DNA of 64,000 nt. Source: Methanocaldococcus vulcanius M7. Its GTDB lineage: Archaea > AGJL01 > Methanococci > Methanococcales > Methanocaldococcaceae. A model generated the notes under the pieces. That model had not been told where the DNA came from. It made no database searches and saw only the letters and a program-made list of their open reading frames with translations. The stretch is from NCBI RefSeq assembly GCF_000024625.1, contig NC_013407.1, positions 1,426,001 to 1,490,000 of the forward strand, written 5' to 3'. Shown here one piece after another: positions 5,415-9,567 of this stretch. The position numbers and the translations under genes were made by a program. Within the stretch, counting starts at the first letter, position 1. Every line of letters starts with the position of its first letter.

Positions 5415-6293
5415 TTAACTTTCATCAATATCCCTCAAAGCATTTTTTATTAGTGTTAAGTATTCTTCTTTTTCTGGAACAACCATGATCCTTTTAGACG
5501 GTAGTTTTATGGAAGCTCTAAAACCATATTTTCTCGCAGTTTCAGTTGCTAATTTATTATATTTGTATAAGTTATTAAAAAGCTCTTCGTTCAATGTTGC
5601 GTTTTCATCAGCGTACTGCAAACAGCATCCTTCTCTCCAAAATCCAATCTTATCTCCAACTTCGTGTGATTTCTCAACTTTGATATTATAATATCTCGTT
5701 AATCTCAGAACATCATCATAAGATAATCGTATTAAAGGTCTAAAAAACAAAATTTCCTTAGTTTTACTATATTTTTGTGGGACCGGGGTTAGTTCCATCT
5801 TGTCATATTTTACTTCACCATACCTCTCCCTTAAATAATTCATAACCGCCCCAGATACTTTTTCAAGAGCCGAATCTCCTGTCATTATTATCTTAATTCC
5901 TTTTTCTCTCGCAAAGTCCACAGTTTTATCTTTCATTATATTTTTACATATCCTACAAATACTACTTCCCTTAGCCCCCCTTGTTCTTTTTAAAATCTCA
6001 TCCGTAATGTCAAAAAACACTGCGGGAATGTTATATTTTTCTGAAAGAGCCATAACCATATTTTTTGAAATTTCCCAACTCCATCTATGATAAAAGTGTA
6101 TTAAATATCTAATATTCAAACCAATATCTCTGGCTAAGGCGATTGCCGTTGAGCTGTCCTTACCCCCACTTGCCATAACCACTATCCCTTCATCCAACAT
6201 ATCTCTCTCTTTGAATTGTGATACAATATCTCTCTTTAAGCTGTTTAGATCATTTAATTTCCTTTTACATCTTGTCCATTCTGAAAATTTCAT
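5415..6293 (-). CDS. PP-loop ATPase, TtcA/NcsA-like (possible tRNA thiolation)
   Basis: An adenine-nucleotide alpha hydrolase with the PP-loop motif SGGKDSS near residue 43 and a CRICKNIM cysteine pair near the middle, as in enzymes that adenylate tRNA and bind a sulfur carrier or iron-sulfur cluster. Further cysteines ([10 protein letters not shown]) lie near the C-terminus. At 292 residues it fits this superfamily. The N-terminus ([13 protein letters not shown]) and a GGGAGATCT ribosome binding site support the start. The substrate is not determinable from sequence; tRNA 2-thiolation is a family-based inference. Confidence 0.75.
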
Positions 6294-6501: not shown

Positions 6502-8184
6502 ATGAAATTGGAATATAAAGTTTTCCTGATCTCATTAATTATGTATGTGATTATTGCAGTAGTGGCAAATTTTTTTAACAATTTTATAATTTTAATAATC
6601 TTAGGGGGCATATTCTCTGTGATAATTACCTTTTTAGTGAAAAATACGACATCAGCTCCAATAAAAGAAATCATTAACATTATAGAGAAAGAAGATATTG
6701 TAGATGTTGATACCATAAACCTTCCAAGTGATGATTTTAAAGTTTTATATGAGAAGATCTGCACTCTCGTGAAAAAATTAAAAGAAAAAGAGAAAGAACT
6801 CGAAATAATGGAAAAAGAAATTGCCCAAACATTTAAAGAGGCATTAAACGCATTGGAACATCTTGCTAACGGGGACTTTTCTGTTCGATTAAATGAAAAC
6901 AGAGAAAGGAATAAGTTTCAAAAAATGTTTAATAAGGCAATAAACAATGTTTCAACAATAATTGAAAATATAAGAAAGGAAGTGTTAGATCTAAACTTAC
7001 AAATTGAAGTTTTGAAAAAAGAAACAAAAAAGGCACGTGAAGCAATAGAACAGATGAGTGATGCAGCTCAGCAAGTTGCAACTGCTGCATCGGATCAATC
7101 TGCAAAACTACAAGATATAACACAAGAAGTCGAAAAAACAGATGAACTTGCCAAAAGGACAGAGAATCTATCAGAAGAAGGAGAAAAAGTTTCTATAGAG
7201 GCAAGTGAAAAGGCAGATGAAGGAATAAAAAAGATCGAAAATGCTGTTGAGGCAATGCAAAAAATATCCAATGTAATTGATGAACTCAGTAAAGCAATTC
7301 AAGAACTCGGAACAAAATCTAAAAAGATTAATGAAATTACTGCTTTAATTAAAGATATTGCTGAGCAAACAGGACTTTTGGCTTTAAATGCTTCTATTGA
7401 AGCGGCAAGAGCTGGAGAGGCAGGAAGGGGTTTTGCTGTTGTTGCAAGTGAGATAAAAAACTTGGCTGAAGAGATAGGGAAATCAGTAGATGATATAAAT
7501 AGAACAATTGATGAAATAAATAGTCAAATAGAGAAAACTGTGAATTTGGGAATTGTAGGTAAAAATGAAGTAGATAAGGGAGTTATTGCCGTTGATGAAG
7601 TCAATGCTGTCTTCTTGAAAATAAAAGAGAGTGTAGATAACACCACCCAAAAAATAAAAGAGATTAAACGATCAGCAAAAGTTACCATTGACAATATGGA
7701 AAAAGCTCTCAAAGATATACAAGATCTTGCATCCATATCAGAAGAATTTACTGCTACTGCTGAAGAACTATCTGCAAATGCAGAAGAAGAAAGAAAAGCA
7801 ATAGAAGAAATAGAAGAAGTTATTATAAACCTTGAAAAGGTATCAAAATCCGTAAAAGAAAATATAATGAGAATAAAAACTTCAAAAAACATAACAGTGG
7901 ATGAAGCTTTCAAACTTCTTAATAATGAGGAATATGTATTTATAAACGTAGTTCCAGAGGACAAATATGACGGTAAAATTCCAAATTCAATTCATATCCC
8001 AATAAATGAGCTTGAAAATAGATTAGACGAAATTCCAAAAGATAAAAAAGTTGTAGTGTATTGTAAATTAGGATTTACAAGTCCAAGAGGTTATATGATT
8101 CTAAAAGAGAAGGGATATGATGTATACAACATGGAAGGAGGATTAAAGGCCTGGAGAGAGAAAGGTTATCCAGTAGAAAAGTAA
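6502..8184 (+). CDS. Methyl-accepting chemotaxis-like signalling protein with C-terminal rhodanese domain
   Basis: 560 residues. Two hydrophobic segments lie at about residues 5-25 and 27-47, separated by only a few residues, so there is almost no extracellular domain. A HAMP-like region and long coiled coils follow. The chemoreceptor hairpin tip is well conserved ([20 protein letters not shown], then [17 protein letters not shown]). The last 100 or so residues form a rhodanese domain, with the persulfide-forming cysteine at about residue 521 in CKLGFTS and the closing GGLKAW motif. No che genes lie nearby. A cytosolic sulfur or redox input through the rhodanese domain is my inference. The start follows a GGGGGAGGTAGGGAG site. 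Confidence 0.9.
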
Positions 8185-8195
8185 GTTTTTCTAAT

Positions 8196-8924
8196 TTATC
8201 TTATTTTTAATACTTTATCTGGATATACAACTATTCCTTCATCAGTTATATCAAACGGATGCCTTTTTAATGAATGGCTCGTTCCTCTCATCTTCCATAC
8301 AATTAAGCTCCTCTTTAACTCTCCATCAATCTCATCTAAGTCCAATCTTATAATCCCATCAACAGCGTGTTCAACTCCAGGCCCCCCAAACCCTCTCTCT
8401 CCAACAGAAATTTGAGATGTAAATATGGCTGTGCAACCTAAGCCAGATATTACTCTTTTTAGTAAAAAAACCGTTCTTCTTGCCATCATTGGTTTATTTA
8501 TATAAAGTGTTGTTACGGAGTCGATACCTATTCTTTTAGCATCAATATCATTTATTGCTGTCTTTAAAACATCTATTAATTCTCTCTCATCATTGGGATC
8601 GTTCACAACATATCTTTCCCTTTTTGCAGAACTACCAATCCCATAAGTAAACGCATCTATTATTGCAAATTTTCCCTCCTCTTCTAACTTTCTAACATTC
8701 CATCCAAATTGTTTCATATTTTCCCTAATTTGGACAGGGTGCTCTTCCAACGCTACCAAAATGCTTGGTTCATCATACTCGGCAGCTCCTTTATATAAAA
8801 ACTGCTGGCAAAATATAGATTTTCCAGTTCCAGGACCCCCAGACAATAGAACAACATTCCTTTCTGGAATTCCACCATGCAAGATCTCATCCATTCCAGG
8901 AATCCCTGTCTTTACTCGTCTCAT
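8196..8924 (-). CDS. KaiC/RecA-superfamily ATPase (GvpD/FlaH-like)
   Basis: A single KaiC-type ATPase domain of 242 residues, beginning [19 protein letters not shown]. It has Walker A GGPGTGKS and a Walker B-like segment [12 protein letters not shown]. Archaea carry many such proteins with regulatory or motor-associated roles; the specific function is unknown. It converges on the chemoreceptor-like gene with an 11-base gap and follows a small hypothetical gene on the same strand. The ribosome binding site is GGAGAGGAGATCT. Confidence 0.85.
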
Positions 8925-8953
8925 AGATCTCCTCTCCTTATATTTTTTATTAT

Positions 8954-9235
8954 CTACTCTCTAAACGATCTCATCTCTAATTTTTTCTCTGGAATATCAT
9001 CTAAAAACATTAGAGATCCTTTTATCTCCACTGCACACACCTTGGATGGATCTACAATAGCAAACGACTTTTCATCCATATTCCAAATAATTATAGGATC
9101 TCGTTTTCCAGTCCAGAGATACTTTAAAATACCATTTTTTAGATTGATTATCGCATCAAAATCATAGTCCCCTTCTATCGCATTTCCCTCAAAGTGTATC
9201 TTAACGTGTAGTTTGTCAATCTTTTTTCTTACCAT
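8954..9235 (-). CDS. Small conserved-looking hypothetical protein upstream of KaiC-like gene
   Basis: About 93 residues, rich in alternating beta-type sequence ([20 protein letters not shown]...), soluble, no cysteines of note beyond one. It sits 29 bases ahead of the KaiC-like ATPase gene and is probably co-transcribed with it. The start could be either of two ATGs (9247 or 9235); the GGGGGAG run sits between them and slightly favours the downstream one. No family recognised. Confidence 0.65.
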
Positions 9236-9567
9236 ACTCCCCCACATAATATATTTTTATATTTTATTTTTATTTGTTATAATTTTATCATTTATTCTTT
9301 TTATTTATTTTTTAATGTTTACAATTTTTATAAATATTTCCTAATCATATAAAATTTCATATTCTACATTTTTATATTTTTTTAGATTTTGTTTACCATA
9401 GTTTTATAATCTTCTAATTAATCTTCTAATTAATTAACAACAACATCCCCTACCCAAAAACCAAAAAACAGGACATTTCATATAAAAATAATATAATATA
9501 ACTTATCCAAAATCCTAAAATCGTTATAAATCATCTTAACCATATAAAAAATTAAAATCAAGGAGAG
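9236..9567. other. AT-rich intergenic region with a 12-bp tandem repeat
   Basis: Promoter region between divergent genes. It holds two exact copies of ATCTTCTAATTA at 9409-9420 and 9421-9432. No gene or GC-rich structure is visible. Confidence 0.5.

Follow-up and report, generated by a model that had tools for sequence, protein, structure and literature searches.

The stretch of Methanocaldococcus vulcanius M7 DNA analyzed here (64,000 nucleotides, referred to below as the window) carries at positions 6502-8184 of the plus strand a gene for a 560-amino-acid protein in which a chemoreceptor is fused to a rhodanese domain, as judged from open reading frame analysis, Pfam searches, and an alignment of orthologues. 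Its coding region is a single unbroken open reading frame that begins with ATG and contains zero internal stop codons. Two genes on the minus strand flank it: a divergently oriented gene for a PP-loop ATPase-like protein (5415-6293), characterized by profile matches and its distribution, and a convergent gene for a KaiC-domain protein (8196-8924), recognized by its match to the TIGR03877 profile. The KaiC-domain gene and an adjacent gene for a 97-amino-acid protein of no known family together occupy positions 8196-9247, and the same pair is found beside the fusion gene in genome G003. The PP-loop protein possesses a CxxC motif and weakly resembles the tRNA thiolation enzymes TtuA, ThiI, and TilS, with scores under every NCBIfam cut-off. 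We rejected it as a receptor-specific partner since its gene is present in all 14 members of the genus, including seven that possess neither che genes nor the fusion; it is thus a positional neighbor.

Domain layout of the fusion receptor

Inspection of the sequence and its hydropathy revealed two hydrophobic stretches within residues 1-50, joined by a loop of a few residues, which bears out the two membrane helices with virtually no outer loop described in a first-pass annotation of this DNA. From hydropathy and the identities of the individual domains, we assign this membrane hairpin to residues 1-48 (6502-6645, plus strand). An external domain is absent in all five orthologues, as seen by alignment and hydropathy. 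The hairpin is followed by a linker with a weak HAMP-like segment (residues 49-156; 6646-6969, plus strand), for which the Pfam HAMP model yields 13.6-17.8 bits (cut-off, 25) at approximately residues 111-142. The HAMP-like region previously noted is therefore found at the same position in five of five orthologues, but it is weak, with every score under the Pfam cut-off.

Residues 157-458 (6970-7875, plus strand) are assigned to the antiparallel receptor coiled coil on the basis of Pfam, invariant columns, and geometry. The MCPsignal profile matches residues 230-402 (E = 9.8e-37; 126.9 bits versus a cut-off of 34.6), and the CheA/CheW tip at residues 288-311, with Gly305 at its turn, is canonical and near-invariant across orthologues, in full accord with the conserved chemoreceptor tip initially proposed. 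Residues N296, E300, and R303 of the tip, which we take to be the equivalents of Tsr N381, E385, and R388, are invariant in the alignment of all five orthologues. The C-terminal arm of the bundle comprises 154 residues and terminates at the height of about residue 151, where the HAMP-like segment ends. This length corresponds to 22 heptads in each arm, as in the 44-heptad class of the receptor classification scheme that was reportedly set out by Alexander and Zhulin in 2007, and a methylation-like motif is present at residue 410. With respect to its bundle, tip, CheA/CheW contacts, weak HAMP-like linker, and methylation-like motif, the protein resembles archaeal transmembrane MCPs of the long-arm (about 44-heptad) class; unlike these, it possesses no extracytoplasmic domain and carries a rhodanese at its C-terminus.

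The rhodanese domain spans residues 464-560 (7891-8181, plus strand), as delimited by Pfam, alignment, and its PDB relatives by sequence, the best of which are 6mxv, 3tp9, 3gk5, and 3icr. The Pfam Rhodanese profile matches residues 466-553 over model positions 2-101 of 102 (E = 1.5e-16; 61.1 bits versus a cut-off of 22.2); no CZB domain is found among the Pfam matches of the protein. Compared with its counterparts in the four orthologues, the domain shows 67-86% sequence identity. Its active-site loop, YCKLGFTSP with Cys521 (residues 520-528; 8059-8085, plus strand), was identified by its invariance and by alignment with 3tp9. The pattern Y-C-x-x-G-F-T-S-P is invariant in all five orthologues, and the loop aligns without gaps with those of 3tp9 and 3gk5. 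It is six residues long, the length found in sulfurtransferases, versus seven residues in relatives of the Cdc25/arsenate reductase type. The fusion protein contains cysteines at positions 87 and 521 only; Cys521 is the sole cysteine that is invariant in five of five orthologues, and it is the one cysteine of the G003 protein.

Active rhodaneses usually possess a D-V-R motif following strand 2. This motif is absent from the fusion protein, where the corresponding segment reads N-V-V-P (Y-V-V-P in G002), with V-V-P invariant in the five orthologues, so that sulfurtransferase activity is not to be assumed. Membership in the rhodanese family rests on the profile and the loop, and the D-V-R motif was not used as a defining feature. 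The complete rhodanese with an active-site cysteine at about residue 521 that had been proposed before is consequently borne out in its profile completeness and in the placement of Cys521 within the loop, but not with regard to the D-V-R motif. An AlphaFold model built from the single sequence of the rhodanese segment was of low quality (pLDDT 62), too poor for use in a fold search.

Orthologues, sequence constraint, and distribution

Full-length orthologues of the fusion protein are encoded by genomes G012, G002, G011, and G003 (81, 60, 60, and 59% identity, respectively), all of which belong to the genus Methanocaldococcus. The mean pairwise identity among the five orthologues varies strongly along the protein: it is 31% for the hairpin, 45% for the linker and HAMP-like segment, 62% for the N-terminal bundle arm, 77% for the tip, 66% for the C-terminal bundle arm, and 70% for the rhodanese, which is second to the tip. 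The dN values of the rhodanese are low (0.08-0.21) in each pair with G000, the genome of M. vulcanius M7. Judged from these comparisons, the membrane hairpin, as the fastest-evolving part, behaves as a simple anchor, and the high conservation of both tip and rhodanese provides the strongest sequence argument for a receptor-tied function of the latter.

A fusion of this kind might have been produced by an assembly or annotation error that joined an MCP gene to a separate rhodanese gene, a concern voiced in the first-pass annotation. The draft genome G004 demonstrates that fragmentary assemblies can mis-join MCP genes within this genus: it contains segments with about 95% identity to residues 105-249 that are spliced to part of another receptor. 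However, the identical MCP-rhodanese junction is present in five species with independent assemblies, two of them single-contig; this rules out the join between two genes that had been feared, and we dismiss an artefact as practically impossible. Since the PP-loop gene of G004 is situated at the end of a contig, at the very point where the fusion would be expected to start, and receptor fragments are spliced in this draft, the missing rhodanese match in G004 is probably an assembly gap. The locus L117:3910-4870 (G004 C66) is a mosaic of fusion-receptor and PilJ-receptor fragments, which probably reflects a collapse of similar genes in the draft assembly.

Genome G006 possesses che genes, but the fusion is cleanly absent: about 40 bases separate the PP-loop gene of G006 from cheD (L116:4486-5863), and G012 carries the fusion between these two genes, at the very spot that is empty in G006. 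Either the fusion was cleanly lost from G006 or the site is ancestral and was never occupied, and the lack of the fusion in a che-bearing genome indicates that it is dispensable. A receptor tree is compatible with a single origin of the fusion, but this is supported in only 52% of the bootstraps.

Our distribution searches covered about 750 other archaeal genomes and pertain to the best matches listed, so that rare or very diverged cases may escape; bacteria were hardly sampled. Among the matches listed, the fusion was found neither in the 36 genomes that make up the remainder of the order nor in 394 sampled, mostly archaeal, genomes, and no match listed for 394 genomes of another archaeal phylum runs from a receptor helix into a rhodanese. 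Scanning the best rhodanese-related loci for a receptor tip yielded none outside the genus, a scan of genome contigs, a set from which close relatives of the window may be missing, recovered ordinary MCPs only, and zero plasmid records contained a place covering 80% of the fusion. In the genomes searched, and among the matches listed, the fusion is confined to one genus, with bacteria hardly represented.

The first-pass annotation had allowed for the fusion being common and already described; neither was found among the archaeal matches listed and in the literature searched. A published survey lists seven types of sensor domain for archaeal receptors, along with unknown domains at the C-terminus, and the word rhodanese is absent from its main text (PMC9680633). 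In the literature searched, no paper joins a rhodanese with an MCPsignal domain (papers mentioning both rhodanese and chemoreceptors were unrelated), none deals with chemotaxis in M. vulcanius, and none reports a chemoreceptor for sulfane sulfur. The protein is certainly present in databases, as the genomes have long been public, and a description of it seems to be missing. Both halves of the fusion are ordinary; their combination and the input that it implies are not.

The chemotaxis system of M. vulcanius M7

No chemotaxis genes are present in the window, as had been stated before, but a complete set exists elsewhere in the genome, which consists of 1,761,737 bases in three contigs (main contig, 1,746,329 bases). 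The search for cheA, cheW, and arl genes suggested in the first-pass annotation identified CheA, CheW, CheB, CheD, CheR, CheY, CheF, two CheC proteins, and the archaellum ATP-binding protein ArlH. The question of the receptor's output, which had been regarded as open, is thus answered: the Che system of this archaeon is complete, and a gene of the archaellum motor accompanies it. One cluster encodes CheW, CheB, CheA, and CheD, with a CheA of 949 amino acids that contains Hpt, P2, dimerization, ATPase, and CheW domains; a second cluster encodes one receptor, CheF, CheY, and two CheC-type proteins.

The genome encodes three receptors: the fusion protein, a PilJ-HAMP receptor, and a receptor of 507 amino acids. 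The PilJ-HAMP receptor (L054:7000-8829), with a PilJ-type external domain and a HAMP domain, adjoins the CheW-CheB-CheA-CheD cluster; an outside sensor is recognizable in none of the other receptors of this genome. The 507-amino-acid paralogue (L055) possesses a membrane hairpin, nothing else that could be recognized, and no rhodanese.

In M. vulcanius M7, the fusion gene is located far from the che clusters. In G012, it is directly followed by cheD, cheA, cheB, and cheW on the opposite strand, and the same adjacency exists in G002, which makes the fusion gene a component of the che locus in these lineages at least. CheA and CheW are present in seven of the 14 members of the genus; the fusion occurs in five of these seven che-bearing genomes and in none of the seven che-less ones (P = 0.010, ignoring relatedness). 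This distribution bears on the idea that the rhodanese is a working sulfurtransferase, anchored near the membrane and feeding persulfide to another pathway, with the receptor serving as a scaffold. The intact active-site cysteine and loop would suit such an enzyme, as would the weak resemblance of the neighboring PP-loop ATPase to sulfur-transfer enzymes. We nevertheless consider it very improbable: sequence conservation in the protein peaks at the receptor tip, the gene tracks the che genes, the D-V-R motif is altered, and the pairing with the PP-loop gene is positional, given its occurrence throughout the genus.

In several species, small coiled-coil proteins of 164-194 amino acids are encoded in the vicinity of receptor or che genes (L055:7390-7974, corresponding to G000 C1:1493389-1493973; L056:151-726; L051:3498-4019; L053:1964-2458; L058:10180-10719). 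They have no Pfam match above the cut-off and approximate the pattern LLxSAxDFRKGNEEMxxLIxQLSxVLDNVEKTL; it is possible that they are unrecognized chemotaxis or array proteins.

The rhodanese domain as a candidate input

We lean, with moderate confidence, toward the view that the fusion protein is a cytoplasmic receptor for sulfane sulfur or redox state whose sensor is Cys521 of the rhodanese, through its persulfide or oxidation state. Dimers of the protein would join the receptor array, and the rhodanese would reside just under the membrane, about five residues past the end of the C-terminal helix, because the C-terminal arm, with its 154 residues, extends from the tip back as far as the HAMP-like segment. 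As the sensing residue, Cys521 would accept sulfane sulfur, donated by polysulfide, S0, or some other persulfide, or be otherwise oxidized. Its modification could then change the conformation or the dimer contacts of the active-site loop and the domain, which would alter how the receptor bundle is packed and, in consequence, CheA activity and CheY phosphorylation; the CheY signal would be relayed via CheF to archaellum switching. The nearest precedent that has been demonstrated is the Helicobacter pylori receptor TlpD, in whose C-terminal CZB domain a conserved cysteine controls CheA activity (PMC6715182).

The proposal that the rhodanese is the input, already put forward in the first-pass annotation, has gained from the occurrence of the fusion in five species, which marks it as old, the sole conserved cysteine, the constraint on the rhodanese compared with the drifting hairpin, and the absence of an external domain. 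It is weakened by the hairpin paralogue of 507 amino acids in the same genome. This protein shows that the receptor type can exist without a rhodanese input, which is our main reason for caution, and inputs other than the rhodanese may act on the fusion as well. The same paralogue, with its equally minimal membrane part, would fit a function of the rhodanese as an adaptation or docking module that binds a partner (a sulfur carrier, CheR, CheB, CheD, or a different enzyme) and keeps it attached to the array, with the signal entering by the membrane hairpin and the HAMP-like segment, the route that the paralogue itself has to use, in response to the energy state of the membrane or to temperature. 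Several other Methanococcales receptors likewise start with a hydrophobic hairpin and end where the rhodanese is attached, and receptors of Escherichia coli carry a C-terminal CheR-binding tail. A docking module has no need of an invariant catalytic cysteine and loop, however, and the hairpin through which the signal would enter is the least conserved part of the protein; on balance, this explanation appears unlikely.

Cys521 could also respond to oxidants or redox potential, by sulfenylation or a mixed disulfide, rather than to sulfane sulfur. Avoidance of oxidants would benefit a strict anaerobe, but rhodanese loops are built to stabilize a persulfide, and a second conserved cysteine for an internal disulfide is absent. 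Although TlpD-type receptors offer a precedent for cysteine oxidation (PMC6715182), we regard such oxidant sensing as distinctly unlikely.

Returning to Cys521 as a sensor of intracellular reactive sulfur or redox state, the sequence data suggest that the fusion probably lets the cell steer by that state. More tentatively, it is possible that the protein represents a new class of chemoreceptor in which a covalent persulfide on the rhodanese cysteine is the input for taxis of vent methanogens toward or away from sulfane sulfur or polysulfide. TlpD and other CZB receptors are similar in that their C-terminal domain is intracellular, and in TlpD one conserved cysteine serves as a reactive switch (PMC6715182). 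The CZB domain binds zinc and TlpD is cytosolic, whereas the fusion carries a rhodanese on a membrane-anchored receptor; the likeness is one of design and not of sensor homology. Sulfur gradients dominate hydrothermal vents. Were the proposal correct, the rhodanese would join the input domains of receptors, a domain with an enzyme fold would have taken on the task of gauging sulfur inside the cell for a receptor that has no outside sensor, and a methanogen that is a strict anaerobe would perform sulfur or redox taxis. Because one domain and its one conserved cysteine make up the candidate sensor, a single substitution would put the idea directly to the test.

In its rhodanese sequence, active-site cysteine, and six-residue loop, the fusion resembles the single-domain rhodaneses GlpE and PspE and the rhodanese domains joined to MBL, CoA-disulfide reductase, or ArsR proteins. 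Unlike the fusion, the rhodanese relatives at the loci examined possess no receptor bundle, and the fusion differs from them also by its replaced D-V-R motif. Fusions of a rhodanese to signaling proteins exist elsewhere too, as is evident from ArsR-annotated regulators among the matches to the domain. The closest non-fused relative in the order, among the matches listed, is a stand-alone rhodanese of 107 amino acids from a sister family (L067; G020 C2:471137-471451), which is a candidate source of the rhodanese domain of the fusion.
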